NCBI GenBank assembly: GCA_013306675.1 | Contig: JABLUY010000009.1 | Location: forward strand, 1 to 64,000 | DNA: 64,000 nt | Direction: 5' to 3' | Origin: Thraustochytrium sp. TN22 | Taxonomy: Eukaryota > Sar > Bigyra > Thraustochytrida > Thraustochytriidae | Shown here: one piece after another, positions 2,823-59,947 of the stretch | How the letters are laid out: each line of letters begins with the position of its first letter | How positions within the stretch are numbered: the stretch's first letter is position 1 | Made by a program: the position numbers and the translations under genes | Notes under the pieces: model-generated | Told to the model about the DNA's origin: nothing | Seen by the model: the letters and a program-made list of their open reading frames with translations, nothing else | Database searches by the model: none

Positions 2823-3125
2823 ATGAGCGACAAGCGCCCGGGCTCGGGCCAGTACACGCCCACGGCGGCCGTGCAGGCCGAGATCGAGAAGCGCAAGAAG
2901 GAGGACGAGGAGGCGCGCGAGCAGGCCAAGAAGGACGTCAGCGAGCGCATGCGCAAGATGGCTGGCGCTGGCGGCCAGGCGCCCGGCTTCAGCACGGCCG
3001 CGCTCGGGGCGCAGATCGCCTCCATCACCTCGGGCGCCGGCGACGACAAGCGCAACAAGACCGGCGGGCTCTCCGTCAAGGCCGTCGTCAAGGCTGCCGA
3101 TGATGGCGACGGCGACGACGAGTAG
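2823..3125 (+). CDS. small charged protein of unknown function
   Basis: This is a 100-residue protein starting MSDKRPGSGQYTP. The ATG at 2823 has a good context (CGCCATGAG). The open frame continues 58 codons upstream, but that part is Arg/Pro/Ala-rich and looks like 5' leader. Residues 15-45 form a strongly charged helix (AEIEKRKKEDEEAREQAKK). The middle is Gly/Ala-rich, and the end is an acidic DGDGDDE tail directly before the stop. There is no signal peptide or membrane segment, so it is probably soluble and partly disordered. I do not recognise a family. A CT microsatellite begins 14 nt after the stop. Confidence 0.55.
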   Translation: MSDKRPGSGQYTPTAAVQAEIEKRKKEDEEAREQAKKDVSERMRKMAGAGGQAPGFSTAALGAQIASITSGAGDDKRNKTGGLSVKAVVKAADDGDGDDE

Positions 3126-3175: not shown

Positions 3176-3777
3176 GCTTTGCCTTGAACAGACTGACTGT
3201 GAGAGCGCGACCTTTCCCAAGCGCAGCGAGCACGAAGTTACAACGTAGCAAATCAGCCGTACCGATTCATTCGCGAGTGCACCGAGTGCAGTGCACCGTA
3301 CCCGGACGAACGAGCAGGCTTACCCCGCGCTTTCGCAACTAAGCTACGCCTTCTTTTGTTGCTTCGTTTTTCTTATCGACTGGCCGAGTCGTGCGCTCAG
3401 CGCTTGTACGTACATTGACCAGGGCGTTTGCGCGGTCTGCAACTCCCTGGCCTTCTTGCGCGGCTTGAGCATCTCAGCCCAGCCATCGGGCCCTCCTCAG
3501 CTCGCCATGTCTGGCTTCCCCGGCCTCGAAGATCGCAAATCATTTTTGAAGGACCACGCGGCTGCGCTACGAACACATCGCTCACTCTCCGCGGATCCGC
3601 TGTCATTGACACTGCTTTGGGCCCTTGCGCACGTGTGCTCCTCGCAACCAGCGAGAGCGGCGGAGAGGCCGCCGCAGGACGACGACGTTCGAGCTCTCTC
3701 CTGTTCCTCTCTCCATGGCATCAAGTTGATGATGAGAGCGAGAGAGGACCGCGACTCGCCTCGCCGCAGAACGGAGG

Positions 3778-3804
3778 ATGCAGCCGTGGGGCGAGGGCGG
3801 CGGC

Positions 3805-3843
<39 letters not shown>

Positions 3844-6800
3844 CGCTCCGCCGCGGCCGGCTCCGCCGCGGCCGGCTGGACAAACGGGGGCGGCGCACCT
3901 TTGGGGGATTCCATCGCGCACGATGGGCTCGCGCTCGACGATGGGCTCGCGCACGACGCCGCCGTGAGCGGGTCGTCCGCGGCCATCCACGACGCGCAAG
4001 GGTTTCTGCACAGCGAACTTCTCGACAAGACACGCGACTCATGCTGGCTCGGCAAGGACGCGGCACGACTCGCTCTCGCGCTCGAGCTGCCGAGGCAGGA
4101 CGGAGGCCACCTGGAGGGCGCCACGGTGTCGACCCAAGACTGGCTCGTCATTTGCCAGCTGCATAGGGAGGCAACACAGCCGCAGGTGCTATGGGCGCAA
4201 CCCATGCCGCCTGGCGAACGCGTCAGACTCGCTGCCTGCGCGGAGGGCAGCATGCTTGTCGTGGCGTGGGGCACCGCGCCGATCCGCGTGCTGCACGCCG
4301 ACCCGGTCTCTGGCGCGCTGCCCATGGCGGCGCTCTGCGCACCGGACCATGCATGTGTCAACGTGCAGGAAATCGACTTGATCCTGGCCGCGACGCGTCC
4401 GGGTGCGCCCGAGCTACGCCTTGCACGCTGGAACGATGCCCGTCACCCAGATCCGGAATCGCAGAAGACGCTGCCCAAAGTCCGGGGACCGCACCGCCTG
4501 CACGTCGACGTCGTGACGCCACGTGGCGTCACCGCGCTCACCCTGGCGCCCAACGCTCGTGTAAGCGACCTCAAGAGCGCATGTGCGGCCTACGAGGATA
4601 TCCCAGCTTCGCGTCTGCGCATCCGTCCTGCCCTCGACCAACCCGACCTGGACGACAGCGAGGCGCTCGCCAGCATCGCCAGGACAGGTGGTGGCGGGAA
4701 CGAAGTCTTGGTGGTCCATGCCGACGCCCACGGCCTGGTCACCGTCGACGCTCTGCATGAGCGCGTGCGACGCCTCCGCCGCCTCTGCGTGCAAAACGCC
4801 TTGCCCACGCCTGCAGCCTGGAAGCAAGCCGCCTTGAGCGTAGATGAATTCTGCTCGATCTTTGCCAAGGCGGATCTGGCCGCGCTCCTCTCAGCAGCTT
4901 GGGAGCTTTCTTCACCCTCGCTCGCGGCCCTAGCGCTCGTTGCTGAGCACGTACGCGTGCAGACCTCTGGGGAGTTCCCCCTGCCAGCAGGCCGGAAACG
5001 AGATGCCCAGAGCCGCGATGCGAAAAACACGCGGGGCCTCGCAAAATGGTCGTCCAAATGCACCGGAACCATGACAACCGTCGGCGGCGGCGCACCGGGA
5101 CAGCAGCCCATCCACGCCAGAGTCACCAGTCGAACGGCGCACGCGGACGAGTCTACGAGCCCTGTTCTGCGCCTGTGTGGCGCGTTTCGCGAAGATACGA
5201 TGCTCACGATGCTCTCGCGCCAGAACAGAGTGCGGCTTGCACGCGACGCAGCTCTCTACGCACAGAGGCGCTTCCAGGGTATCCCCAGCTTTTCGCCGGC
5301 CCTCCTCACCAGTTCGCAGTTCAACGACCTCGCTCCTCTTCGCGACGTCGCCGACCTTTGCTTTGAGGACATCGTCCCAGCGCATATCACCAGGATGGCG
5401 CGCAGCGCTGCTGCAGCTGGATATGCCTCGCAGCGCACAAGCTCTTCGCCAGTCTCGCACCTATTCGGCTCCTCTGACCCAGATGACCCCTACGTCGCCG
5501 TGGTTCGTCTCGACGGCACAGTACACGTATGTGGTGCCGACTACGGGGTGGCGACAATCGCGTCCGGGACCCTGCCCGATCCGAGCACCATCCTGGAGCT
5601 GTCCTTCTCGCTGGACCCCACTCGCCACAAGCGGCCCGGCAAAGCGCTCGCGCCGGGTCAGAAAATGCCTGGCGCCGTCCTCGTGGGCCTGCAGAGCGCG
5701 GCGGGCGCTGCAAACCAGATCGCCGCCGCCTGCGATGCAGGCGACCCGTTTGCACGCCTTTTGGATTCCGCGCTCCCATCGCCACTCCTCAGCCGCAAGC
5801 ACGTGCTCTACGCTGCGCGCCGCGAGCTCACGCACGCTGTCGCTCGCGCCTGCATTCACATCGTGCGAACTGGAGCCTCGGGGAGCGAGGCGCTCGAGGT
5901 CGTGCGGTACGGCTTCCGCCGGGGGCGGCTGGTGGAGCTTAGCTGCACTCAGCTTTTGCCGGAGTTTGCGGGCCACATTTTCGTCAGCCTCGCCTTTGAC
6001 CAGGATCGCGCAGCGCTCTGGGCCGCCTGCGGCGACGGCGAGACGTGCCTCACGGTCATGAAAGTGGCGCTCGTCGACGGCAGCGTGGTGGCGCGCAGTC
6101 CGAGCCTGCCATGGGGTTCAAGCGACGGCCCGCCGAGTCTGCTCGCCACCTTTGGCGGCTTGGTAGTCCATTGCGCTAGCTCGGGCCGAGCCTCGCTTCT
6201 CGATGCGGCGACGCTGTCCCTGTCGCCCCGGTCGCTCCTGCAGCTGCCCCGGGAGCAGACCTCGACGGAGCTCTGCTTCATGCCCGCGGGACCCGATGCC
6301 TGCTTTCTCGCGACGAGTGCGGGCTCGCTTCTTCTTGTTCGGGCCTCTTCGCTCTCAGAGCCGCTTGTGGAGGACGAGATGCAGTCGGATCCCACCGCGT
6401 GGCTCCTGGCAGAGAGTCCGCTCGACGTTTACGAGCACGCAACGCCCGCCCTTCGTTCGCTTCCCGCGGCGCGGGACCGGCACTCGGCCTGGCTGCTCGA
6501 GCCGTCCATTGATACCAAGGGCACCATCACCTTCGAGTTTGAGCCGGACACTATCATCACCAGCCTCTTCGTGCAGGTTCTCCGGGCCGCCTCGGGCAAG
6601 CCCGACGCCAAGGCGTCATGGACGGCCCGCGCGACCATTTATGGCCGCAGCGAGAGCCACGTCCACGTGGATGGGCCTGCGGGAACGCTTCGGCGCGTCA
6701 GTCACTCCCGCAAGGAGCGCGAACGCGATGGGGCATTCTTTGCCTCGCCTTTTCTCGATGTGCCCTCGAGCGCCGGCCACGACGCAGGGCACCGCGCCAC

Positions 6801-9800
6801 CGTGCTCCGTCAGATGTGGCCCGAGTCAACCGAATCGACGTTTCCCAGCGAGTGGGTGGCTGTTCCCGTCTTTGGAGCTCGCACGCGAAGGCTGTCGCTA
6901 GCAGTGGATGCTGCGGGGTGCAGCGCTGCTAGCGATCTCGTCCTTGTGCGGGTGATCCTGAGGGGCTTCCAACGCGCCTCGGGCTTTGGAGCCCTACGTC
7001 TCGACCCTTCCGCCATCGTTCCCGCCCTCCTCGAAAGGTCCGACGATGCCGACCTCCATCTGTTGCATCGATTGCTCCCGTCTTGCTTCGCGCTGGTGCT
7101 CGAAGAACTCAGAAAGGGCGACCGTGTCGAGCGGCTACTGCGCGACGCTGTACTGCGCGGGGGGCCTGCGCGCATCCTCGCCGCATCACAGCTGCTCAAG
7201 GCGGTGATGCACCGTGCCGACGCGCACGGCTTTGAGACGCACTTTCCTCCCATTCTCATGGAACTCAGGCGCCACACAGACCTGTCGGCGTTGGGACTTC
7301 GTTGCTTTGCCAAGCTCGTCTCTGCCTGCTCAGTTAAGGCGCTGAGCAAGGCTTTTCCTTCGCCCGGCACGGCGCAAGTCGTGGCCCTCTTCGACGAGTT
7401 CGGACAGGACCTGGTGCGCTTTGCCGACTGGGACGCAGAGGAGGACCCCGATACTCCGCGGGTGTACGATACCCCTGTCCTTGAGGATCACTTCAGCTCA
7501 CGCATCTTTGCCCACGCGCGGGCCCCAAACAGCAGACAGGGTCTCGCCGTGAGTTCCTTTCTGCTGCATGGGGATGGCGCGAAACGGGAAGAGGTCCTCC
7601 CTTTCCGGGTCCTCCTGGGCGCGCCCCAGCCGTGCGTTGTGCCCACGTTCCACCATAACCAAAAACTCGAGACCGACCCGTTCAATGCACTCGGGGCTCG
7701 CCACGTCTGGCTGCGAGACCTCGACACGAGCCACGATCGCACCGTTGCGTTGGCCCTCCAGATGACGCTAGGGGCCGAGGCCATACCGCAGATTCTCCGT
7801 AGGATCCTGGCGGTTGTGACGATTGAAGACGAGACCAAGGCACGCCTCCTGGCGTACGTATCGGTGTTCGCAACCAACGATGCAGGCGCTGCGCGGACGG
7901 CGTGCGCGCAGGTCACTTCAGCCGCAACGCCTCATGCGTCAGCATCGTTCCCACAGGGCTGCGAAACGTTGTGCAAGGAGCTGCCGTTGCACTTTCGCGG
8001 CCCGCGCAAGAGCGGCGCCAAGGGTCTTCTGGCGCGCGTCGAAGTTGTCCTAGAGAACGCCCCACCATGCCCGCGCTTCCTCATCATCGTAGTGCGCGCG
8101 CCCCCGCCTGCCGGATGTCGAGGACTCCGCATCAACGCTCTCGTTTGTGGTGCCCCCATGGCTGCGGCCGAGGCCCGCGCTCTACGATTGCACCTCCTCC
8201 GCGGGCTCATCGAGCGCCGTGAGGATGCCGACAGGGAGCTTCGACGCAAGACGGGCAAGACGGGCAAGGCGAAGGAAGACCTGGAGCACCTGCAGCTCGC
8301 CTACCTGCAGGCAGAGCTTGAGGGCGCCGCCGCGCCGCCGCTTTCCCGCGCCGATCAGCTGCTGGAGTGCACCATGCTGGTGGGCGACCTCGCGCTCTGC
8401 TTGCAGGATGAAGGTTTAGGCGACCCGACGCACGACCAGTCGGTCCGCATCGTCCACCGCTTTCTCCTGCATGGGCAGCCCGGCCTGTTACGCGACTGCG
8501 CCAAAGACATGGTGTTGGCGAGCCTCCAAAGCAACCCGACGATCCTCTTCCAGGCCGTACAGCTGGATCTCACGGCTGGCAAGATTGACCTCCTCCACGC
8601 TTATACGCCTGCTTTCGCCGCCAAAGACCTCACCGAACTCCTCAGGGTCATCCCTGCAGGCCAGCACGCGGCGGACGTGGCCATGCAGCTGCTCGGCGCC
8701 GCGCGCGACGGCCTGACGCGCCGTGCGGCTCTCGCCACAGTCGCCGCGATTCTCCAGGCTGTTGCGAACGTCCCGCAAGTGTCCTTTGCGACGCCAAAAA
8801 CGTACAATACCGGCAACAAGCAGGTGCCTAGGCTCGTGCGCGAGGCGCTCAAGGTCATCGACGAGGCGCTGCAGCAAGCGGAGCTGCTTTGGGATGATTT
8901 TCTGCATGCGCTCATCTCCTCCGCGGTGGACGTGATTGTCGGCGGGCTCTTGATCTGCTCAGGCCCCACAAACGAGAAAGCGCTCAGTTTTCTCGTTGCG
9001 GACGCCGAATGCTGGGCCACGGTCCGAAGGCTGCTCCTCGCGCATCCCGGCGCGTCCTCTGTGGGTACCTATTCCTTCCACAGCCTTTTACAACTGTTCA
9101 ACTCCGGCGAGCTGACCGTGGCGCAGACAGACCTGTTGCACGACATTGAACAGATGCCAGTGTCGGAGCACAGCCTTGAGCTCATCTACAGGCTGAACGT
9201 CGCCAAGGAGGCGAGCCCAGCAGCGGTTGCGGCCGTGGTGCACTTTGTGAGTCGCACGCATTGCGAAAGGACCTGGTGGGCCGCGACGCGCGTCCTTCTG
9301 GACGTGGACATTGCCGTCCTGGCGCACGCTTCTCCGCAAGACGCCCGTGCGATCGTACGCACGCAAGCGCTGCACCAGGGTGGTGCGGCCCTCGTGAAGC
9401 GTGGCAAGGAATACCCGCAACGCCGATCCACAAAGAGCAACAAGGCTGCAGGGGAGCAAAAGGCAACGACAACGCTGGAGTGTCTCATGCGCTTTTTGCG
9501 CTGCGCCTGCATCAGCAAGGACTTCGGGCTGCTCGTGAGCGACCTGTTGGAGGCGGCCGCAAGCTTCAGCCCTGCGAACGAAGCCGCACTCGGCTGTGTC
9601 GTCCGGGAGCTCCTCAAAGTCTTGCATGAGGAGGAGGTCGGCAAGGCTCTCCTGGATTGCGCAGAGGTGGTCGCCGCACTAGGCACCTTCGCCGATGCAA
9701 GTCTGGGGCTCCTTCGCCAGAGCCTGCGCGCCGAGCTGGACATGCTGAGCCCACCCAAGGTGCCTGCACCTTGGGGGCCTGCCCCCAGCGAGGGCGCGGC

Positions 9801-12800
9801 CAGCGTGGCGTCCCCGCCCGAGGCCAAGGCTGCCCTCGCCTCACCTGCGACGCTGAGCTCGCCCGTGCCGCCTTCAGGCACGGCAGCCATGCCCAAGTCG
9901 TTCTCAACGCCGCCGACGGGCGTGTCAGAAGTGAACTGGAGCACGCTTGCGAAGGGCCCAGGACAGGCACGAACGTCTCCTAGTGAGCGCGGACCCGCAG
10001 CGCTCCCAGTGGTTCATGTGGAACAAGGTCCGGGACCGTCAGGCGCCTCCCACATCATGTCGGCCGCGACCCGAAGCGCGCTCCTCCGGCTCCTTTTGTT
10101 GGAGCAGGGCCACGCTGAGACGCCTTCGTCCCAGGCTGCGAAAGTCTCGCTCGGTCGGCGCTGCGAGATGCTCTGCGCATGTCTGTGTCTCGAGGAAGAG
10201 GCACTGCTTGTGCGCAAGGACCTGCAAGAGTGCATCGGCGACGCAGATTCGCTCCCGATGGAGGAGCGACGCCTGCTGGCGAGCTGCCTGGTGGTCGACA
10301 TGCAAGGGCTCGGCGCCGACCGCCGCGCGCAGACCATCCTCGAAGCCGAGCGCCTCGGCGCTTGGGCAGCACTTCGCGCGCAGCTCACCGCGATTGCGGA
10401 GGCGGCTCCGGAGATGTGCGCGCAGGCCTGCGTGAGGGCCCTCGCGGAGCATACGCACACGCGTGGCGTCGCGGATGTTCTCGTTGATGTGGTTGGTGCG
10501 TATCCGGAAGCTTGTCGCTATGTGGCAACTTCCGGCGCGTGCCAAGTGCTGGCAGGCGTTCTGGGCGAACCTTTTCAGCGTCACATTGTGGTCGCGGACG
10601 GCCCGCTGACGGTGGAGCTTGCCAATGACGCGAAGGCGAAACTAGCACGTCTGGAATTCCAGGCCTATGTCCTGTCCAAGACCCACTCTCGCGCACGCTC
10701 GGCACTTCTGCATTGTTTGGAGAAGTACCTAGCCAGAATCCAGCCGAGCAGGTGTAAGCTACCCCTTGCAGCATGGCCCCAGCAGGACACGCTGGGCGCC
10801 CTTCACCGCTTCGGCAGTAGCGAGGGAGGCAGTGTGGCGGGGCGCGAGTTTGGGGGTTCGGAGGACCAGATGATCCTGGCCTTCCGAATGAGAACGCCGC
10901 TCTGGCCTATTGCTGTCGAGATCACCTTCACAGCTGGCCGCCAGGACGGTAAGGAGTTCTCCGGCCTGCCACCCTGGGTCATTGTGGAAGTCTCCCGGGA
11001 TAGGGACCTGACCAACTTCAAGCAGGTCGGCATGGCGCGCTTCGTGCACGACGCGGCGAGCCCGTCACTGGCACACTGTCGCACGTACCATCGCCACAAG
11101 ATGTTCATTGCGCTGGACGAGGCCTGCCGCACGACGTGGGCGTTGAACATGCGCATTCGCTTCGGCAGGCCACCGCCGAGCGCAGGCGCGACGGACTCGC
11201 TCATTGCAATGGAGGGCATCCACATCTTTGGCAACACGGAGCAGACGCTTACGAGTCTAGGTTCCTACGCCCTGTGCAGTCGTGTACCGCGCAGCGAGGG
11301 CGTCGCAGAGGCGCTCGTCCGAGTCTATGCGTTCGCCCTGGCGGACCCGGAGTGCGCCCCGCAGACTCGCGCGAGCCTGTTGAGCTCCCTCGTGCAGTGG
11401 ACCACCTCGGGGGCCTCCCTCCGCGCTGTCAGCCGCTGCTGGGACGCAAACGCAAAAGTGCTGCGTCCCGACGAGCTTGTGGCAGGGCTCGACGCCATCG
11501 CGGCAGCGGTCGGTACGGCGGCGCGCGATCGGAGCTCCTTGGCCGAGGCGGACGAGGAGGCCCTTCGCCGGAGCGCTCTGGAGGGTGTCGATGTCGCTGC
11601 GCGCCGCGCCGCCGCGGGGCTCTGGGCGTGGCGAGCGCTCCTCGTTCGTGCCGGGCCTGATGTCTCTGTAATCTATCTGCGGCGTGCCGTGGAGGACCTT
11701 TTGGATCGTCTGAGCGCGGGCGGCGAAGTCATGCTCACCTCGGTGGCGGTGGGCAAGCTTTCGGCATGTGCCCAGGCGCTCTGCGTGCACGTGCAATCGG
11801 AGCTGGCGGCGTCGAGTGGGGTAGGGCAAGGCGCGGTGCCACCCCTCTTGGTCGCGCTGAAACGCACAGACGAGCTCTGCGCAGGCGGGGCCTCCGCTGC
11901 GTCTAGTGAGCTGCTGCTGCCTCTGTACGAGCACGCCAAGACGGCCGTGATGCAAGGCCTTGTCCAGGTAATACGTGCCTGCCCGGACGCGCTCGAGGCC
12001 GTCGCGGCACAAGTGCCCGCCCTGTTTGATGCATCCCTCCCTTCCCTCGGGCCCCTTTCAGCAGAGTACGGCGCGGTGCTGTGCTGCGCCGCTGGGCCTC
12101 GGGGCGCGGAGCGCGCGCGGCAGCTCGCGGAGGCTGCCCTGAAGACCGCCCTGAGTGACGCCACAGCGGTGGCGCTGCGTGCGAAGGAAGCTGCCTTGCG
12201 GACGCTTGGCGTGCTCGCTCCGTTTGGCCCGGACGAGGTACAGCGGATGCTCCTTGGCCGCGCTCGCGATCTCCTGCCGCTGGCTACTGGCCCTCACGGG
12301 AATGTCGTGGCTCGCATTCTGGGAGGCATGGCCCGTGCGTCCGAGGGCGGTCTCGGGGCGGAGACGGTTATCGGGCTGGCGTGCGAGTGGGTCGGCAAGA
12401 CCGCCAAGGGCGGTGGGAGCGGCATGCGAGGCGCCGTGGAGATGCTCCTGGTCACGCTCCGCGAGGCCGGGACCTCGTACACATGTCTGTGGCCGGACGC
12501 GGACGCTGGTCCGATGGAGTGGCTGCAGTGCGCCGCTCTGGGGGTGCCGCCACGCCCTGGGCCAAGAGGTGCGTCGCCGCTCTCGATTCTCCGCGATTCT
12601 GGGGAGAGTGCGTCCTCTTCGAGGACGACGGGGCTGTCAAAGGAGGTCCTGGCCTTTGAGAAGGACGGATGTTCGGGACTGGTTGAGGTGAGTCCGAACG
12701 GGGATGAGGCGACGCGCATTGACTCGGGGGACTGGGCCATGGTACGGAGCGCTGTGCCAATGTCTGGGCCCGGCGTGCGCCAGTGGGAGATCGCCTTTGA

Positions 12801-15800
12801 CGTGGAGGACAAGCACGCAAGCATCAGTGTGGGTGTGGTATGCGGCGCGGGACTGAGCGATGCGCCCGTGGAGCTGGGCTCGTGGCTGGGTTCACAGAAG
12901 TCATCTTGGGCGTTCCAGAGCGACGGGACCGTATGGCACGCTTCCAAGGTGACCAACTACGGTCAGCCACTTCGGGCGGCGAGGTTCATCGTTGGCGTGA
13001 CGCTGGACCTGGGCGCGGGCACGCTAAGCTTTTCGTTCAACGGCCGGGACCTGGGTGTGGCCTTTGCAGATATGCCCTGCGACTGCGTGTACTACGCGGC
13101 CGTGGGGTTTGGCCCGATGTACATGCCGGCGCGACAGGCCGCGCGCTCGCTCGGTCTGCGCGGGGGCTCGTCCTGGCCCTCGGTGCCTCGCGACGAGGTC
13201 CTCCGGCAGCCGCTCATGGAGGTGGCGCTCTGGCAGTGGTGGTCGACGCACGAGGCAGTCACGGTCGAGGCGCTCCTGGGTCCGCAGAGCGGCGCGCAGG
13301 CGGCCGTCGGATGCCGGCAGGCCGCCGTAGAGGGTCCGCAGCGGGCTGCAGCGGCCGCCGAGGCGAAGAACGTGACAACGGCCTTTCGCGACGGGCGATT
13401 GGCGAGCCTGCGGCTGGGGCACGCAATCCTGGCGGGTTGCGACGGGGCGAGTGAGCAGACGGTGGACGACCTCGTGCCGGTCGTGCTGCCGTGGAAGGAC
13501 GCGGCGGACCTTGCGTGGGCGCTGCGGCCATTCCCGGTGGTGCGCATATCGTCACGGCTACCAAGCGAAACGCGGCGCGCGCTGCTGGCGTGCAGGTTGG
13601 CTGCGAGCCGAGTGCTGGCGGAGTCGCAACAACGAGCGGCCCTGGGTCGCGCGCTGGCGTGGGCGCTCGTGCCGGGGCTGACGGGCCCACTGGCGACTGC
13701 CTCGGCGATCGAGGTGGCCGGCACCGTCGCGCTGGAGTGCTCATTCGTAGACACGCACGAGCACTTTGTGACGCAGGTCTGGTTCCACTGCAAGACGTGC
13801 GGGCTCACGAACAGGAAGGGTTGCTGCGCGTCATGCGCGCTGGTGTGCCATGCCGGCCACGAGATCATCTGCACGGACCGCACGAGCTTCTACTGTGACT
13901 GCGGCTGCTCGCTGGTGTGCAAGTGTCTGAGCGACGGCCGCCTGGCGCTGCCGTGCCCCACGGCGGCCACTGCAACCAGCCAAGGGGCCTTGAGTGATGT
14001 TCGTGTGCGCTGGAAGGTGGAGCCCGCCATGGCGGCAGAGGCCCAATCCTCGCGCGACGCGGAGACGCTCATGCAGCTCGCTAGCGCACCGACCTCGCAC
14101 GATGCGCTGCCGGACCTCGTAACTGGCGTGGTCGACAATGTTTCGGTGTTGGCAGCGGCGCTTGAGGGCGACCTGCTGGCGACGTATAGCTCGCGCGAGG
14201 CGAGCGCCGCGGACCGCCTGCCGCGGGTCCAGTGGCGCGAGCTGGCGCTGTGCGACTGGACCAAGTACCTTTTGCTCCTGCGCGCCTCGGGCAGGGTGCC
14301 GGGCTTTTGGGCGTCGTTAGGCGCGTCGAGTACGGCACAGGGCGTCTTCGCGAGCTTGCTGTTTGCCCGATTTGCGCGCACGAGGCCTGCGACCGCAGTG
14401 CTGGCGAGCTGCCAAGAGGACCCGGGCGGGCCGATCGTGGATGCGCTGGTCCCGCTAGCTGCTGCACGCGCCGGCGACCTGTTCGAGAGCGGCACTCTTG
14501 CTATTCTGTTGGCGCGTCTGGCGGACCTGGACGGCACGGCGGACGCAAGCGAGGCGTTCTTGGCTAGCGAGGTGCTCGAGCGCGAGGACCCGCGATACGG
14601 CGAGGTCCGGCGGCGATTTGCTGGAACGAGCGCGGAGGCCGCGGAGGTGGAGAGCGACAAGGAGAAGGAGACGGAGAAGGCGAAAGCGAAAAGTATGGGA
14701 GCAGCAACGGCTGCTGAGAAGACGGAGGAAGACGATGAGGAAGACGAGGACGAGGAAGAAGGAGGCTTCGAGCAAGACGGGACGTGGGGCGGGCTGGGAG
14801 AGGACGAACAGGAGACGTCTGCGACATTCTGGCAGCCTGGGTTCGGCGCAGGTGCAAGCGACCAAGCAGCCGCTGATGCGAAGCGCGAGCAGGCGCAGGC
14901 GCAGCGACGCAAGGCCGTGCTGCAGGTGCTCGAGGTGGTGATCGCGGTGGTGGAGAATGTGGCAGCGGCCCAGGAGGCGGCTCTGAGCCGCACGCTGGAG
15001 GCGTCATGTGTCCCTTACATTCTACATGAGTACCTCTTTGGCAACTCCCTCAAGACGCTGCTCGAGGACGGCGAGGTGACGCTCCGGCTGCTGCGGCTGT
15101 GCACAGCCATCCTCGGGCGACCGGGGCTGGTCCAGCTGCGGTCGGCTGCGGCGCCGGGGCGCTGGCCCTTGACTCGGCTCTTGCGGACCATGTTGGACGA
15201 GTTCCGCGAGGAGCTGCAAGAGGCAAGCGACACCGACGCCCTGATGCAGCTAGGGCATCAGCAAGAGCAGGAGCAGCAGGAGCAGCCGCAGCCGCAGCCG
15301 AGGACGCTTCCGGTCGCCGAGCAGCAGGCGCAAGCGCAGGCGAGGGAGGAGGCGGCCATGGCGCGGCAACTGCTGGAAACCCTGGAAGGCGCTGCCAGTC
15401 TCCTGTCGGGCAAGTACGTGGACGAAGCGGGGCGGGAAAGGGCAAGTCACGTGGAGGGAGTCGGGGAGGACGAGGCCAGGGAGGACGGCGCCGAGGCAAG
15501 CGAGAGCGCGGCAGACGGCGAAGGTGCAACCGGGGCGGGCGGCGCTGGCGCTGGAGATGCGTACGAGCGGGCGGTGCGCGAGCTCATCTTTGGGACGGCG
15601 GACTTTCGGGTCGCCGGCGTTGCGCACCATTTCGAGGCGAGTGCGGAGCGAGAGGCCTCGCAAGGCGGCGCGACGCGCGGTCGCGCTGTCCGGCTGAACC
15701 GCGAGCTGCGGTCGCTGCGCAAGACGCTGCCGGTACACGTGGGCTCCACGATCGCGGTTCGCGTGGACGAGCGGCGGCCCTTTCTGCTGCAAGCGCTGGT

Positions 15801-16395
15801 GCTGGCGCCGGAGGGCACGCCCTACGACTCAGGGTGCTTTCTGTTCGACATTTACATGCCTCCGGAGTACCCTTCGGTGCCGCCGCGCATCCACCTGAGG
15901 ACGACGGCGTCTGGCACGGTGCGGTTCAACCCAAACCTGTACACGAGCGGCAAGGTGTGCCTCTCGCTGCTCGGCACGTGGCGCGGCGGCGCGACGGGCA
16001 ACGAGACGTGGACCAAGAAGTCGACGCTGTTGCAGGTGTTGGTCTCCATTCAGAGCGCCATCCTCGGGTCTGAGTTCCCATACTTTAACGAGCCTGGCGC
16101 CGAAGCCGAGTGGGGCACGCCCACCGGCGACCTCGCGCGGCGAGTCAGCGACAACGGCGGCTACGAGTACCTGCGCGAAGCAACTCTGAAGCACGCTGTC
16201 CTGGAGCAGCTACGGGCGCCGCCGCCGCTTTTCGCAGACCTCGTGCGCGTCCACCTGCGTCTCAAGCGCGCACACATCCTCAGTGTTGCGCAGACTTGGC
16301 TGCTTGAGGCGGAAGCCTCCGACACGCGTGGCCATCACGCTGCGCTCCTCGCCATCAAGCAAGAGCTCGTCACGAGCCTCGGCGAGCTGGCCTAG
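3778..16395 (+). CDS. giant UBR-box / SPRY / E2 ubiquitin-conjugating protein, BIRC6-like
   Basis: The product is 4205 residues in one exon. A polyGly run sits at residues 8-20. Residues about 240-315 resemble a ubiquitin-like fold, and further regions resemble a WD-type propeller (about 500-900) and a discoidin/DOC-like beta sandwich (about 2355-2465). A SPRY domain spans about 2975-3110 (VRQWEIAFDVEDKHASISVG). A UBR box starts at Cys3321 with the full Cys/His ladder (HCKTCGL, CASCALVCHAGHE, FYCDCGC). An acidic linker follows (about 3620-3665). The C-terminal E2 domain (about 3979-4115) has its catalytic Cys at residue 4061 in GKVCLSLLGTW and the PYFNEPG motif typical of BIRC6/UBE2O-type E2s. 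UBR boxes bind N-degrons, so the protein could select and ubiquitylate substrates by itself. No BIR domain was found. The UBL and propeller calls are weaker than the UBR, SPRY and E2 calls. Confidence 0.9.
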
Positions 16396-32474: not shown

Positions 32475-32563
32475 TGGCCGCGTGAGCGGGCGTTGAGGCC
32501 CGCGGCGGATCCGCGGGGATCCGCGCCGTGGTGGTTGGGCTGGGCTGCTTGCTGGGCGCCGGC

Positions 32564-35500
32564 ATGGTGGTCGTGCTGAATGTGGCGGAGAAGCCGTCGA
32601 TCGCAAAGCGCGTAGCGGAGGTGCTCTCGCGCAACCAGTTCGCGTCGCGAGCTGGTTTCTCGCAGTACAACCGGTGCTTCGACTTTCCGTGCGCGTTCGC
32701 GATCCCGCCGCAGTATGCGGCGCAGCAGCAGTTCGAGATGGTGGTGACCTCGGTGTCGGGCCACCTGATGGAGCTGGACTTCTCGGACGAGTTTCGCGGC
32801 TGGCGCAGCTGCCAGCCGAGCGCGCTCTTCGACGCGCCCGTGGTGCGCAAGGTGAGCGCGCAGGGGGAGAACATCGCAAAGACGCTGCGACGCGAGGCGC
32901 GGCGAGCGCGTGTGCTCATCATCTGGACCGATTGCGACCGCGAGGGCGAGGCGATCGGCGCGGAAATTGCAGAGACGTGCCGCCAGGTGCAGGCCAATCT
33001 GGTGGTGAAGCGCGCGCAGTTTTCAGTGGCGAACGATGCGAACCTGTGGCAAGCGCTGGCGCACCTGCGCGACCTGAACAAGCGCGAGGTGGACGCAGTG
33101 GAGACGCGGAGCGAGATTGACTTGCGTATTGGATCGGCCTTCACGCGCTTCCAGACCATGGACTTGCAGGAGAACATGGGGCTAGAGCAGCGCTTGGTGA
33201 GCTTTGGGCCGTGCCAGTTTCCGACGCTCGGGTTCATCGTGGAGCGCGCCGAGGAGATCCGGCAGTTCGTCGCGGAGGACTTTTGGACCATCCGGATGGC
33301 GGTCAAGCAGGGCGAGGATGCCGCGTGCGACTTCCGTTGGGCGCGCGGCCAGGTCTTCGACCACCTCACGACGCTGGTCCTGTACGAAATGTGCGTGGAA
33401 GCCGGCGAGGCGCGCGTGGAGCGCGTGCAGCAGCGCCCCACGTCCAAGTGGCGGCCGTTGCCGCTGTCGACGGTGGAGATGCAAATCCGGCTCTCGCGTG
33501 CGCGCGGGCTCGCGTCGGAGACCACGATGCATGTGGCCGAGGCGCTCTACCAGCGCGGCCTTATCAGCTACCCGCGCACAGAGACGGACATCTTCGACGC
33601 GAGCTTCAATCTGCAGGAGCTCGTTGAGGTACAGCGCGCGCACGGCACCTGGGGCGGGTATGCTGCCTCGCTCTTGGACGCGGGCGGCTTTCAGATGCCG
33701 CGGCCGGGTCGCAACAACGACCAGGCGCACCCGCCCATCCACCCGACTGCGTGCGTGCCGCTGGAACAGCTGCAGGGCCCGGAGCGCACCGTGTACGAAT
33801 TCGTCGTGCGCCACTTTCTCGCCTGCTGTAGCCAGGACGCGCGCGGCAGCAAGAGCTCCGTCACGGCCAGCATGGGTGGCGAGGTCTTTCGTACGGACGG
33901 TCTCGAGGTTCTGGAGCGCAACTACCTGGACGTCTACCCGTACGAGCGCTGGTCGGAGCGCAGCCTGCCGCGCTTTGAGGAGGGTGCGGTCTTTGTGCCG
34001 ACGGTACTGGAGATGCACGCAGGCCGCACGTCGCCCCCTGATCTGCTCTCGGAGCCGGAGCTCATCCGACTTATGGACCGCCACGGCATTGGCACGGACG
34101 CCACGATCCAGGACCACATCAAGACCGTGCAGGACCGCTCGTACGCGACCAAGGTAGGCCATGGCGTCAAGCGCTTTCGACCCGAGCCACTCGGCTTTGC
34201 GCTCATCCAGGCGTACAAGCGTATTGGCCACGAGCGCGAGATCTCCGGGCCGACCTTGCGCGCCTACATGGAGCGTCAGCTCAAGGACATTTGCACGGGC
34301 CAGCGCACCAAGGCCGACGTTGTGCAGGCGCTCGTCGTGCGTTTTCGCAACATTTTTCGCGCCACGCTTGACCAGGTCGACCTGCTGCACCGGGCGGTTG
34401 CGGAGAACCTCGCTGGGTATGAGGAGTTCGCAAACAACCTGGCGGCCGCTGAGGGAGGCGGCGCTGGCGGGGGAGGAGGAGGAGGAGGAGGTGGTGGAGG
34501 AGGAGGTGGTGGTGGTGGTGGTGGAGGAGGAGGAGGAGGAGGTGGTGGTGGTGGTGGTGGAGCTCCGGGTGGCGGCGGGGGCGGCCCTGATGGGGGCGGG
34601 CGGAACAGCATCAACAGCAACGAAAACAACGGGAACAACGTGGACGCAGTGCAGCGGCTCCTGCAGCGCGGTCAAAGCCAAAAGGTGGAGCAGATCCGAC
34701 GCGAGTACCGGCTGAAAAAGCGCGGGATGGCCAAGTGCGGCAAGTGCGGCAAGCAGGCCATGGACCACTTCTTCAAGACGGTAGACGGAAAGCCGGGGCC
34801 GCGCGGCGGTAAGACAACCGCGCAGCTCAACTGGCTCATCTGCTCCACATGTGATGAGGGCTCGGAGATGCCGCGCGGCACGCTGACGGCCTCTGAGCAC
34901 TCGTGCGCACTGTGCCAGAGCCAGGTGGTGAGCGCCAAACCGAACGAGTGGGCGTTCTTCGTGTGCCCGCGCTGTTACCAGCGGCCGCCCAAGTCCACGG
35001 ACATCGAAGACATGCTCATCCGGCGCACCATGACATGCCGTGACTGCGGCGAAGAGCGCTGCCCGCTCTCGGGCAAGGTGGCCGGCAGCGACGTGGACAT
35101 TATGCCGTGTGGCAGCGCCTCGTGCGAGGGGGGCGCGCTGCGCCTCGTAAAGTTCGCCGCCAACCAACCCGGGGACGCGCCGCAGTTCCAGCTCCGCTGC
35201 AAGAGCAAGGCCTGCAAGGCGCGCATCTACCTTCCGCGCAGCGTGACGCGCGCTTCGGTCCCGACACCCGCGCGGCCCTGTCGCGCCTGCGGTGCCAAGC
35301 AGGTCAGTTTGGAGTTCAAGCCCACCGCGCTGCCGCCTGGCTGGCTCTCGCCGCTCGTCGTCTGCGTTTCGCCCACGTGCAAGGACCGCTCCACAGAACT
35401 GGATTGCATCCTGGAGTCCTACGGCGGCCGAAGCCGAGGCGACGCTGGGGGCGGCGTCTCGACCTCGTCCTCGTCTGCGCCCAAGACTTCTGCTCGACGG

Positions 35501-36079
35501 GTTCGGGCAGATCCGCCCATCGATGCTGGCTTCGGTGGTGTCGCAGCTGTCGGTGGCGGCGGCGGCGGCGGCGGCGGTGGTGGTGGAACTACGATCTCGT
35601 GCTATTCATGCGGAGAAGAAGGGCATTTCTCGAGCAACTGTCCGAACAGAGCTGGCGGCTCCAGGAGCATGGACGGCTTCGGCGGCGCCGGAGGGGGCAC
35701 GAGCACGATCACGAGCGCCGCGGCCAATGCCACATGCTATTCATGCGGAGAGGCAGGGCACTTTTCGAGCAGCTGCCCGAACAGAGCTGGCGGCTCCAGG
35801 AGCATGGACGGCTTCGGCGGCGCCGGAGGGGGCACGAGCACGAGCACGAGCGCCGCGGCCAATGCCACGTGCTATTCATGCAACCAAGTCGGTCATTTCG
35901 CCAGCAGCTGCCCGAACAAAACGGGCGGCTCCAGGAGCATGGACGGCTTCGGCGGCAGCGGAGGGGGCGCGAACACCAGCGCAGCGGCGAATGCCACGTG
36001 CTATTCGTGCAACCAAGTTGGCCATTTCGCTAGCAGCTGCCCAAACAAGGCGGGTGGTGGCGGTGGCGGTGGCGGTGGC

Positions 36080-36113
<34 letters not shown>

Positions 36114-36622
36114 TCTTCGGACGTGCTGGTCCGATTAGCAATGCAGCGGCAAATGCCACGTGCTACTCTTGCAACCAGGTCGGGCACTTTTCAAGTAGCT
36201 GCCCAAACAAAGTCGGTGGTGGCGGCTCTGGCGGCTATGGTGGAGGCTATAGCGGCATGAATGGCAATGTCAGTGGTGGTGTTGGCGGCGTTGGCGACGG
36301 TGGTGGCAGCAATGTGTGCTTTTCGTGCGGCCAGCCGGGGCACTTTGCAAGCAGCTGTCCCAACAAGGGCAACGGCAGCAGCTACGGTGGTGCTGGCGGC
36401 GGCGGTGGCAGTAGTAGCTACGGTGGCAGTGGCAGCGGCGGCGCTGGCGGCGGCTATGGAAGCCGCAGCGGCCGGTCAAGCAGCAGCCGAGGGCGCGGTG
36501 GCAAGCGGTCACGATCGTCTGGGTCCAAGGGCTGGAAGCAGTCAAAGCAACGCTTATGCCCGACGTGCAACACGCCACTGGAACCGCGCAAGCGCAAGTG
36601 CAGGGCGTGCGACGGGGCCTGA
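32564..36622 (+). CDS. TOP3: DNA topoisomerase III (type IA) with zinc-ribbon and six CCHC zinc knuckles
   Basis: The protein is 1352 residues. The open frame begins 12 codons earlier at a GTG, but the ATG at 32564 gives the family-typical start MVVVLNVAEKPS. The TOPRIM domain has Glu9 (EKPS) and the metal-binding DCDREGE beginning at Asp123. The catalytic tyrosine is Tyr336 in LISYPRTETD. After the core, residues about 633-675 are polyGly, followed by Cys4 zinc-ribbon motifs (CGKCGKQ, CSTC, CALC, CPRC). From residue 1013 on there are six zinc knuckles (C-x2-C-x4-H-x4-C, e.g. CYSCGEEGHFSSNCP), and a last Cys pair set lies near the end. Plant TOP3alpha also carries CCHC knuckles, whereas vertebrate TOP3A carries GRF fingers. 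The enzyme is expected to act with BLM/Sgs1- and RMI-type partners in dissolving double Holliday junctions in the nucleus, possibly also in mitochondria. Confidence 0.93.
34460..34577 (+). repeat. GGA/GGT trinucleotide tract encoding polyglycine in TOP3
   Basis: The tract is about 118 nt of GGN codons in alternating GGA and GGT blocks, inside the topoisomerase coding sequence. It separates the catalytic core from the zinc-binding tail. The purine-rich strand asymmetry makes it prone to length change. Confidence 0.85.
35600..36050 (+). repeat. tandem 135-bp coding repeat: zinc-knuckle plus Gly/Ser linker
   Basis: Knuckles begin at 35600, 35735, 35870, 35999, 36161 and 36317. The first three are exactly 135 nt apart and nearly identical in DNA, including the linker (SRSMDGFGGAGGGTS). 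This points to recent tandem duplication or gene conversion. The 129-nt and 162-nt later spacings reflect linker contraction and polyGly expansion. Confidence 0.85.
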
Positions 36623-38169: not shown

Positions 38170-38961
38170 TCAGACTTGCAAGCCGGCCACGAGGCGTTGA
38201 AAGTCCGCGTCAAGCGCAGCGAGCGTGTCGCGCGCGCGCTGCAGGCTCTGGCCAGCAGCGTGGGCGTCGCCGGGCAGGTCGTGGTAGGGGCGGAGCGCGG
38301 CGCGCAGCTGGTCATTGCGCGCGCGCGCGGCGTCGAGATCCTGACGCTTGCGCAGGAGCGCCGCGTGCGAGAGGCGGTCGAGGTCTACGTTGTGCAGCGG
38401 CGCAAGCGCCGCTCGACGCGCCTCGGCGTACTCGGCGCGCTTGAGCTTGAAGGCGGCGGCGTCCTGCTCGGCGTCCTGCACGACGAGCGAACGCGCCTCG
38501 TCCTCGGCCTGCACCTCCCCGAGCTGCGCCTGCAGGCGCCTGCGCGTGTCGTCTGCCGCTGCCACCTGCTCCTGCAGGCGCGCGCGCCGCGCGCGCGCGG
38601 CCGCGAGCGCCGCGCGCAGCGCCTCGTCGCGCGCCCCGGCGTCGGCCCAGGCCGCCCAGAACGCGGCGTCGCCGCCGGCGCCGCCGGCGTCCACCCGAGC
38701 GCCAGCGCGCCCGCGCCAGCCGCGCGCCCGCGCCCGCGCCCGCGCCCGCCGCGCCGCCGTGTCTCGCCGCCCATGCCGAGCGCCCGCTGCCGTGCCGGCC
38801 GGCTCGGCCGTTGTCGCTCTGCGCAGGGCTCGTACACTGCACGGGTCACCGCCGGCGGGGTCAGGTCCGCCGCGACGCCGCGGCGCCGGCGGCCGGGCAG
38901 AGCGCGGCCAACGTCGAGGCGGCGGCGCGGCGGCGCGGCGGCGCGGCGCGGCGCGGCGCAT
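38170..38961 (-). CDS. augmin subunit HAUS1/AUG1-like coiled-coil protein
   Basis: The product is 263 residues if started at the ATG at 38961; human HAUS1 has about 280. Residues 1-100 are Arg/Pro/Ala-rich and of uncertain authenticity. From about residue 105 a continuous coiled coil runs to the end (ALRAALAAARARRARLQEQV onward). The C-terminal part matches plant AUG1 and animal HAUS1 in order and spacing: LSHAALLRKRQDLD, then LRAALRPYHDLPGDAHAA, aligning with AUG1's ISHGVL...LRSYQDLPPD...A. Augmin recruits gamma-tubulin to existing spindle microtubules to nucleate branches. The frame is open further 5' into the divergent O-fucosyltransferase gene, so the upstream limit is set by that neighbour. 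A 5' intron would change the N-terminus. Low-GC codons are absent, as in the neighbours. Confidence 0.6.
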   Translation of the reverse strand: MRRAAPRRRAAAPPPRRWPRSARPPAPRRRGGPDPAGGDPCSVRALRRATTAEPAGTAAGARHGRRDTAARRARARARARGWRGRAGARVDAGGAGGDAAFWAAWADAGARDEALRAALAAARARRARLQEQVAAADDTRRRLQAQLGEVQAEDEARSLVVQDAEQDAAAFKLKRAEYAEARRAALAPLHNVDLDRLSHAALLRKRQDLDAARARNDQLRAALRPYHDLPGDAHAAGQSLQRARDTLAALDADFQRLVAGLQV

Positions 38962-39041
38962 GCTGCGCGCGGCGCGCGGGCTGCAGGCCGCGGGCGCGGC
39001 GGGCGCGGGCTGCGCGGGCGCGGCGCGCGGGCGCAGCGGGT

Positions 39042-39091
<50 letters not shown>
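39042..39091 (+). repeat. GGGCGC hexanucleotide array
   Basis: About eight GGGCGC units end 25 nt before the ATG at 39116, in the spacer between the divergent HAUS1-like and O-fucosyltransferase-like genes. Confidence 0.9.
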
Positions 39092-39093
<2 letters not shown>

Positions 39094-39115
39094 CGGCTGC
39101 CGGCGGCTGCGCAGC

Positions 39116-40723
39116 ATGGGGCTGCGCGCGCTGGCGCTCGCGGTGCTCGCGCTCACGACAGCCATGGTCTGGCGGGCGTGGCTCCTGAGCGGCGTCATGA
39201 ATGCATCGCTCGCAGTCGAGCCGCCACCGCCGCAGATGATGCAGCAGATTGGGCCGCTGCGGGTGGGCCGTGAGGACGCAGGGGTCCACTCACACGAGGA
39301 GGAGGAGGAGGCGGAGGAAGAACCTACCGGTCGCTCCGGCGACGGCGACAGTGGAAACGACGGCGACAGCGATGCCGACGGTGTGGATGGACCGCTGCCG
39401 GCGCACCAGCGCGTCTCGGTGCTGGTGACGCGCGATTCGATGGAACGCATAAATGAGCGCGAGCAGCGCGCAAACGAGAAGCTGCGCGACCAGAACGAGC
39501 TGGTGTCCTTGTGGGCCAAGAGCAAGGCGCCGGTGAGTGAGGCGCTCAAGCTTAAAAAGGACCTCATCGTGGAGCGGCACTTCACGAGCACCAGGTGGTT
39601 CGAGGAGGGCCACAAGTACTTCGTGTATCAGCCGTCCGGCGGCATGAGCAACCAGCGCATCATCTTGGAGGATGCGCTGCTCGTGGCGCGCGCCCTGGGC
39701 CGCACGCTCGTCGTCCCGCCCGTGTGCCCGCATACGAGCATGTTCTGGAACTACAACAAGGTCGACTGGGACCGCACCGTGGAGGGCTTCCAGGTCTTTG
39801 ACCAGGCGCGCATGTCGCGCGCCGTGCGCACGATGGGGCTAAGTAACATCATTCTGCGTCGCTTTGTCGAGTCCAACGAGCCACGCACCTTCCCGCGCTT
39901 CCATCGTGTCGAGCTCCCGTACAAGATGGCGGACCGCGAACCGCCCTACACGACGCAGGACCTGCAGCGCCTCTACGGCGACGATGAGTCCGAGATCCTC
40001 TTCTTTGCCAAGTACTCCATGTGGAAGCGCTTCGCCTTCACTGAGGAGGAAATGTCCTTTGCGCGCCGCCACGTGCAGCTGCACCCCGAGCTGCGCCGCG
40101 TGGCCCGCGTCGCCGTCGACCGCCTCTACGCCCACCGCCCCTTCGTCTCAGTGCACGTGCGCTTCCAAGACCGCGACACGCAGCTGCTCACCGACAAGCT
40201 TGGCCCAGCCTCCAGCTTCGTGCGCCGCCTCGCGCAGCACAACGCTACCGGCGCCTCCAAGGAAATGTATGTGGCCACGCAGCCCACACGCTCGAAGTCT
40301 ACCTTCTTTGAGGCCTTCCGCAAGGCCGGCTTCACTCTCAACTTTAGCTCCGCGCTCGCCGACGTGCCCGAGGTCGGCCTCTTCCTGGCGCGCTTCTCTC
40401 AATCCGACATCCAGGCCAGCCTCCTCGGCCTCATCGAGCAGCTCATCTGCGCGCGTTCCACCATCTTCCTAGGCACCGGCTTCTCCACCTTTTCGCGCTA
40501 CATTCGCATCAAACGCAATGACCCGGTGCTCTTCTACGACCTCTCCCTCCTCCCAATCCACTTACAGGAGGACCCGGACTTTGTTGACAACAGCGACACC
40601 CCCGCCATTCGCGAAGCGCTCGCCATGGCTGCGCCCACGTCCAGCGCCGCACGCCACGAGTTAGCGCTCGTAGCACGTCCTGCGCTTTGTGAAGATGCAG
40701 TGGTTTCGCTCGCCCCCTGCTGA
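39116..40723 (+). CDS. O-fucosyltransferase-like type II membrane glycosyltransferase
   Basis: The protein is 535 residues. The ATG at 39116 begins MGLRALALAVLALTTAMVW, a signal anchor of type II Golgi/ER enzymes; the frame is open 256 codons further upstream, but that part is Gly/Ala/Arg low complexity antisense to another gene. An acidic stem follows (about residues 60-100). The catalytic domain starts with QPSGGMSNQRIILEDAL and RTLVVPP (about 172-205), the signature of GDP-fucose O-fucosyltransferase superfamily proteins (GG-x-x-NQ...). FVSVHVRFQDRD (about 342) supplies the conserved HxRxxD-like donor-binding segment, and TIFLGTGFSTFSRYI (about 455) matches the C-terminal loop. Predicted role: transfer of fucose or a related sugar to secretory proteins in the lumen. 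Donor and acceptor are inferred from the family. A tRNA gene starts 178 nt after the stop. Confidence 0.75.
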   Translation: MGLRALALAVLALTTAMVWRAWLLSGVMNASLAVEPPPPQMMQQIGPLRVGREDAGVHSHEEEEEAEEEPTGRSGDGDSGNDGDSDADGVDGPLPAHQRVSVLVTRDSMERINEREQRANEKLRDQNELVSLWAKSKAPVSEALKLKKDLIVERHFTSTRWFEEGHKYFVYQPSGGMSNQRIILEDALLVARALGRTLVVPPVCPHTSMFWNYNKVDWDRTVEGFQVFDQARMSRAVRTMGLSNIILRRFVESNEPRTFPRFHRVELPYKMADREPPYTTQDLQRLYGDDESEILFFAKYSMWKRFAFTEEEMSFARRHVQLHPELRRVARVAVDRLYAHRPFVSVHVRFQDRDTQLLTDKLGPASSFVRRLAQHNATGASKEMYVATQPTRSKSTFFEAFRKAGFTLNFSSALADVPEVGLFLARFSQSDIQASLLGLIEQLICARSTIFLGTGFSTFSRYIRIKRNDPVLFYDLSLLPIHLQEDPDFVDNSDTPAIREALAMAAPTSSAARHELALVARPALCEDAVVSLAPC

Positions 40724-41356: not shown

Positions 41357-42582
41357 ATTTTGTGCCAGCCAATCAGGGGTTCCAAAGGTTCCGTCGTGGG
41401 CGGGCTACTAGAAGTAGTGACGAAGCCTGAGCTCCGGTCGCGGCGTCTTCAAGTTGCCAGTCGCTGCCTGGTCGGTCGCCGGCGGGCGCGCACCAAGTGC
41501 CACCAACCACTGCAGTGACTGCACGACGTGCGGATAGCGAGCCAGCACGATTCTGTCGCCGGGTCGCGACGCGCGTACTCTTTTGCCTCGGCGCCACGAC
41601 GCGCGGCGTCCTGGACGCCTGCGCTAGTGGGCCGCACGAGGCCGCCGCGGCCCGGTCCGGGTGCGGCGGGTGCCGCCGACGTGACCAGCGGCCAACGTTA
41701 CTACTACTAGTACACTGCACTGGCAATGGTGGACGACGTGCTGGAATAGCCGGTTCCGTGGTTTCCCACTGGCCAATAACAACAACACCTCTGCGCTGTG
41801 CGCTGCGCAGGCCTGTGCAGTACGAGCCTGCCGAAGCTGGCAGCCGCAGCGGGTCGCCAGCCAGCCAGCACGTGCTTTGCCAACCTTCGACACGTCGTCC
41901 GCCGCGCGCGCCGCGGGCCCTCGCGCGGCTCGCACGGCTCCGGGCGGCGGCGGCCGTGCGTCGGTGACTATGCGCGTCGGTCCCGGTCCAGACTCGCCGC
42001 GCGACCCCTCGCACACGGGCCAGGACCTCGCAGCGCGAGCCGCGCCGGGGGGTGCTCAGCGAGTCTCGTCGCGGCACCCGCCCTTTGCGCGCTCGCTGGC
42101 CGGTCATCGCGTGCCGCCTCGCGCGTGCCGGCGGGCGGCGGCGCGGCGCGGCGCGGCACGATGCCGGCGCGATGCGGCGAGCGCGAGCGACGTGCCGGCG
42201 GGCGGCGGCGAGGGCAGACCCGCGCGGGCGGCGGCGAGCTGCGCGGCCTCGGCGACGGGAGGCGGCGGCCGTGCAGCGCGTGCAAGAGCACGTGCTGGCG
42301 GCGCAGCGGGGCGTGGCCGCGGCATAAGTAAGCTTAGGCCTTAGTTGTTGGCCTTAGTTGTTGTCAAGTTGTGCGTGCACGCTTTCTTTCTTTCCAGCGC
42401 AGGCAGTCCAGCAAGTCAAGTCCGAGGGCGCTGCCCCGGCGCGCCTCGCGCCCTTTGCGCGCGGAGGGCCGCACGCGGCGGCGGCGGCGGCGGCGGCGCG
42501 CCTGAGCGCGCGGCGAGCGCGGCGAGCGCGGCGAGCGCGGCGAGCGCGGATGTGGATGCAGGATTTTGAAATTCACAACAAC

Positions 42583-59575: not shown

Positions 59576-59947
59576 ATCGTATCATTGTGCCAGCAGGTCG
59601 CCCGCTCAGCTCTCCTTCGACGATCCAGTCTCTCTCCCTCGATTCAGATGATGTGCTCTCTCTGTGCTTGCCTCGGCCTCGCGCAGCAAGTTCCCCGCGC
59701 GACGCGCCCGCCGTGAACGGCGTGGCTGGCGGATGATGTGCCACTGGCAGTGCAGGCAGTGCGATGTGGGCCGGGCCCCCGGCCTTGTGGGCCTCGTAGT
59801 TGGAGACCGCGGCGCGTCCCGTGGCGCGGCGGCGGCAGTTCCTGGCGCGGCGGGATCCAAAGAACGCAAAGCCGCAACGCGCGAGCCCCGCGGCAGCCAG
59901 CGAGCGAGCGAGAGCGCGGGAGAGAGCAGGCGCGTGTCATAGGCGAG

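Follow-up and report, generated by a model that had tools for sequence, protein, structure and literature searches.

A giant thraustochytrid protein combining a UBR4-type UBR box with a BIRC6-type UBC domain

In Thraustochytrium sp. TN22, one continuous open frame encodes a protein of 4205 residues in which a UBR box of the UBR4 type and a UBC domain of the BIRC6 type reside in the same polypeptide, a real and unusual architecture that is confirmed by sequence comparison. In the N-degron pathway, this labour is usually divided, with a UBR-type E3 reading the substrate and a separate E2 conjugating it. We lean modestly towards the view that the thraustochytrid protein is an E2/E3 hybrid of the BIRC6 type that captures free N-termini with its UBR box. 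The frame lies on contig C453 of a eukaryotic assembly of 37.9 Mb in 453 contigs, within the stretch of 64,000 nucleotides that was analysed as a whole and is called the window here; the positions of its features are given in Table 1.

Table 1. Features of the 4205-residue protein and their positions in the window.
Feature	Residues	Position	Strand	Basis
Giant BIRC6-type E2 with UBR box, 4205 aa		3778..16395	+	single open reading frame
Probable ubiquitin-like domain (UBL)	235-322	4480..4743	+	
SPRY domain	about 2960-3112	12655..13113	+	Pfam PF00622, E 2e-15
UBR box, UBR4/BIG type	3321-3384	13738..13929	+	sequence matches to UBR4/BIG
Probable BIRC6-type C-terminal helical (W-x-x-G-x-G) segment	3683-3820	14824..15237	+	via the paralogue on C439
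BIRC6-type UBC with C-terminal extension	3929-4204	15562..16389	+	Pfam, PDB matches
UBC core	3972-4095	15691-16062	+	
Codon of catalytic Cys4061		15958..15960	+	aligned with the BIRC6 GKVCLS cysteine

The original prediction had placed a UBR box and an active-site UBC domain in one uninterrupted frame, which Pfam, matches to PDB sequences and GC3 bear out. GC3 stays between 0.69 and 0.85 in all 21 full 200-codon bins, marking the frame as coding throughout by composition, and the remaining five frames over 3778-16395 hold 43-92 stops. A gene of this size is not unusual for the genome, as several further uninterrupted frames of 4100-7500 residues were found in it.

Other giant frames of the genome include one of 4137 residues with a SPRY domain (C400, 2720 residues scanned) and one of 5313 residues with SPRY, UBA and HECT domains (C63, 1687 residues scanned); a 3044-residue frame for a polyunsaturated fatty acid synthase of the PfaA type (C124:26703-35603) reached 2540 bits with neighbours and, along with genome size and GC, hints at a thraustochytrid. 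Within the window itself, a type IA topoisomerase with Toprim and Topoisom_bac domains and six zinc-knuckle stretches, presumably a TOP3 with an expanded CCHC tail, occupies 32528-36622. Ordinary neighbours are an O-fucosyltransferase frame (38348-40723), a multicopper oxidase frame (42358-48546), an AMP-binding/DIP2-like frame with PP-binding (52436-56734) and a class I/II aminotransferase frame (59738-61198).

The best PDB match of the UBC domain is BIRC6 (3ceg, E 1e-57), in agreement with the subfamily named in the original prediction. Among PDB sequences, BIRC6 scored 198.8 bits, UBE2O 122.9 at best and UBE2Z 109.2, and a chain labelled 'BIR repeat containing ubiquitin-conjugating enzyme', which we take to be the Drosophila protein, scored 175.4; with UBE2O 76 bits under BIRC6, the domain is not closest to UBE2O. 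By these scores, the UBC is of the BIRC6 type, ahead of UBE2O and UBE2Z. It is 45% identical to human BIRC6 over 223 positions and 61% identical over 247 positions (57-61% across comparisons) to that of a paralogue on C439, and a profile of the UBC regions of both giants matched BIRC6 along 293 residues with 255 bits, reaching beyond the UBC core. With the whole protein as query, BIRC6 was matched in the UBC stretch only.

A search with UBR, SPRY, UBC and BIR profiles, suggested as a check together with the original prediction, gave a divided answer. In the whole-protein scan, UBC and the predicted SPRY domain were recovered well above the Pfam cut-off, neither BIR (PF00653) nor the BIRC6 domain PF12356 appeared at E values up to 1, and the UBR box fell below its cut-off; zf-UBR did pass when a 170-residue piece was scanned alone (26.8 bits against a cut-off of 25.2). 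A search of PDB sequences with the box retrieved UBR4/BIG with an E value of about 1e-12, FBXO11, presumably itself a UBR-box protein, with 6e-8 and UBR5 with 2e-6, and a profile built from four other UBR boxes of the genome scored the box at 25.4 bits, while 2000 shuffled regions reached at most 10.9. Two other identities for the box, a BIR scored wrongly and a zinc finger of a generic kind, were rejected, all 17 PDB rows at E<=0.01 being UBR4, BIG, 'UBR-type domain-containing', FBXO11 or UBR5; a BIR-like spacing pattern picked up the UBR box alone and no BIR.

The box aligns gap-free to human UBR4 from residue 1662 and keeps nine of nine cysteines and two of two histidines of the UBR zinc pattern, by our reading the same letters as the nine cysteines and two histidines that bind the three zincs of UBR4 (PMC10687169). 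According to the available part of that study, D1715 of UBR4 holds the amino group of the substrate, and F1671 is unique to UBR4 among seven aligned UBR domains; the residues aligned with these are Asp3374 and Phe3330. The other key phenylalanine, F1713, is Tyr3372 in the box, so that one of the two is kept, and K1708 is Asp3367. At Val3380 the box lacks the Arg-selecting Asp153 of UBR1/2, with which D1721 of UBR4 has been equated, a residue that UBR4 does not need for Arg (PMC10687169, as available). In vitro, the box of human UBR4 accepts both aromatic and Arg N-termini (PMC10687169); a preference similar to that of UBR4, not identical with it, is expected here. The box is 46% identical over 61 residues to that of the genome's own UBR4/BIG; that the protein might itself be the genome's UBR4 was rejected, UBR4/BIG being encoded on C266.

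The paralogue at C439:100452-123065 is a second giant BIRC6-type E2, a continuous open frame of 7538 residues with Laminin_G, two SPRY domains, two ZZ fingers, MIB_HERC2 and UBC. Both giants run collinearly from SPRY (35% identity at the same relative place) through a helical segment to UBC, and in pairwise alignment the UBR box stands out as an extra block whose immediate flanks align weakly. A third BIRC6-type UBC sits in an 828-residue frame at C79:41463-43946 and is 52% identical to human BIRC6 over 212 positions, compared with 45 and 46% for the two giants. The presence of a UBR box in these other two proteins was considered and rejected: with a five-row UBR profile, the C439 protein scored -2.7 bits and the C79 protein was unlisted.

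The segment common to the two giants (E 2e-10) covers the stretch from about 290 to about 150 residues ahead of the UBC core. Its C439 copy matches BIRC6 4283-4418 at E 8e-4, five of six rows being BIRC6. In shuffle controls, the scores for C439 against BIRC6 and for the two giants against each other were reached by none of 1000 shuffles each, and that for the 4205-residue protein directly against BIRC6 by 4 of 1000, a marginal result. Since the segment links the protein to C439, and C439 to BIRC6, its C-terminal chassis would by transitivity be of BIRC6 type beyond the UBC domain. Towards the N-terminus, what had been put forward as a possible UBL is now a probable one; Foldseek with a model of this domain returned nothing with an E value of 0.001 or lower. 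The N-terminal 1241 residues gave no convincing PDB sequence match, including for a WD40 propeller, and a single-sequence AF2 model of residues 60-1121 had a mean pLDDT of 36 and no usable fold. Possible jelly-roll stretches seen by eye at about 900-1090 and 2390-2600 had no Pfam match with pieces covering both, and an NCBIfam scan gave nothing.

The genome holds at least 28 UBC matches and at least six UBR-type boxes (in the 4205-residue protein and on C266, C404, C130, C255 and C154), lower bounds in both cases as introns split matches; among these UBC matches, that of the 4205-residue protein is the one case in which a UBC and one of the six boxes occur in a single frame. The C266 frame combines a UBR box, a ZZ domain and the E3 module PF13764 (E 2e-119), which Pfam does not find in the 4205-residue protein. 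Three frames have a UBR1-type box, and in each a winged helix like that of UBR1 is matched, in one case below the cut-off (2138 of 2532, 2240 of 2461 and 1763 of 2375 residues scanned). A frame of 5140 residues at C154:12269-27688 carries ankyrin repeats, a C-terminal HECT domain and one or two weak UBR-like boxes, at about 3777-3822 (14.5 bits) and 4022-4061 (11.5 bits). E1 is represented by three full-length matches and one fragment. The arginyl-transferase ATE1 was not found in the genome with either of its Pfam domains, where introns could hide it or the assembly lack it, which makes arginylation doubtful as a source of Arg N-degrons. A six-frame search of the genome at E values up to 1 gave no BIR, with the qualification that a copy split by introns could be missed and that no control genome gave a signal; PF12356 was likewise absent from the genome, again with no signal from a control genome.

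Based on these comparisons, one can picture how such an enzyme might operate. The large middle of the protein would form a helical scaffold, as in BIRC6, and the UBR box would capture substrates with an exposed N-terminus, probably aromatic or Arg, with Asp3374 taking the free amino group and Phe3330 and Tyr3372 the side chain. SPRY and UBL could provide further receptor or E1-recruiting surfaces. Once E1 has charged Cys4061, ubiquitin would pass from this cysteine straight to the held substrate, as in BIRC6, with no need for a RING or HECT. The outcome would be, as a hypothesis, a one-protein N-degron pathway in which E1 is still required. The original prediction went further in letting the UBR box stand where the BIR would be, and this did not hold: the BIR of BIRC6 interrupts the N-terminal WD40 domain between its blades 2 and 3 (PMC10827748, as available), and the box lies about 300 residues before the C-terminal helical segment. 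As the positions differ, any 'replacement' of the BIR would be purely functional, the box doing the job of a reader of free N-termini from another position in the chain.

Our confidence in capture of N-termini by the box is kept modest by what is reported for human UBR4, where, in the available part of the study, no obvious targets were enriched once the UBR domain had been deleted, and the ZZ-DZB module of KCMF1 was a major receptor (PMC7618180); boxes of this type may thus be weak readers in cells. The same findings speak for a serious, if less probable, alternative, in which the architecture is as described, the box acts as a structural zinc fold or as a surface for binding partners, and substrates are taken up by SPRY, UBL or a cavity of the scaffold. 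Two residues near the pocket that differ from UBR4, and the failure to find ATE1, point in this direction too. However, the box has retained the alpha-amine Asp and the UBR4-specific Phe along with the full set of zinc-pattern Cys and His, which is more than a bare fold needs.

An improbable variant makes the protein an E4-like chain extender, or a partner of the separate UBR4/BIG, with the UBR box marking shared clients and not acting alone. It draws on the similarity of the two boxes within this genome and on the description of UBR4 as a chain-extending E4 that works alongside BIRC6 and others (PMC7618180, as available). It is not in keeping with the animal enzymes, whose BIRC6-type UBCs are known to act without a further E3. 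Finally, the whole construct could be two genes read as one, or a chimera of the assembly, a very unlikely explanation that draws on the absence of a paralogue of residues 60-2000 elsewhere in the genome; the frame, however, is uninterrupted and even in GC3, and both flanks of the UBR box are common, in order, to the paralogue on C439, whose own frame is also continuous.

For the enzyme as we favour it, with the UBR box as reader, there is a precedent of a kind in the BIRC6 family. In pull-downs, free N-terminal peptides retain BIRC6 and N-acetylated ones do not (PMC12152192, as available), so that the family already works as a reader of N-termini coupled to an E2. ZZ domains can read N-termini as well: that of Arabidopsis UBR4 binds peptides starting with Arg, and human KCMF1 ZZ-DZB binds an RT N-terminus (both PMC7618180, as available), which makes the ZZ fingers of the C439 giant candidate readers by analogy and led us to put forward the idea of a swap of readers. 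More tentatively, and with doubt prevailing, the BIRC6 chassis might be an all-purpose machine that joins a reader of free N-termini to an E2, the reader varying between lineages: a BIR (animals), a UBR box (the 4205-residue protein) or ZZ fingers (C439). On this view, BIRC6 would be an older enzyme for the surveillance of N-termini, with its role in cell death as one of the uses, and the 4205-residue protein would hold N-degron recognition and conjugation in one chain.

If the UBR box works, reading and conjugating would be united in one natural, E3-independent N-degron enzyme, and N-terminus reading by BIRC6 would appear to predate its role in apoptosis. The protein also makes it testable whether a box of the UBR4 type, of doubtful weight as a receptor in UBR4 itself, decides which substrates are chosen once it is joined to an E2. 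The original prediction knew of no characterised protein with this architecture, and no paper on a UBR-UBC fusion was found in the open-licence literature, among the matches listed; in the available part of a survey of apicomplexan ubiquitin genes, zf-UBR occurs in a figure legend and no UBR-UBC fusion was seen (PMC2408969). The same architecture may well occur among uncharacterised database entries; no relatives were confirmed in viral and prokaryotic contig collections.

Compared with known systems, the 4205-residue protein shares separate features with each. UBE2O is a large, E3-independent E2/E3 hybrid with a related UBC, whose score lies well below that of BIRC6 and which, to our knowledge, is not joined to a UBR box. 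The C439 giant repeats the order SPRY, helical segment, UBC, but differs in its two ZZ fingers, Laminin_G, second SPRY and MIB_HERC2, and in having no UBR box. With UBR4/BIG, the protein has in common the subfamily of the UBR box, the zinc pattern and most pocket residues; it is unlike UBR4/BIG in lacking PF13764 and in having a built-in UBC, and the genome's own UBR4/BIG is a separate frame. To BIRC6/BRUCE/Apollon it is tied by the UBC subfamily with its C-terminal extension, probably, via C439, by the upstream segment, by giant size and by the probable UBL, which lies near the N-terminus here and within C-terminal armadillo repeats in BIRC6 (PMC10827748, as available), while it has neither BIR nor PF12356 and instead a UBR box and SPRY. 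By its domain content, with no BIR, PF12356 or PF13764, the protein is neither BIRC6 nor UBR4.
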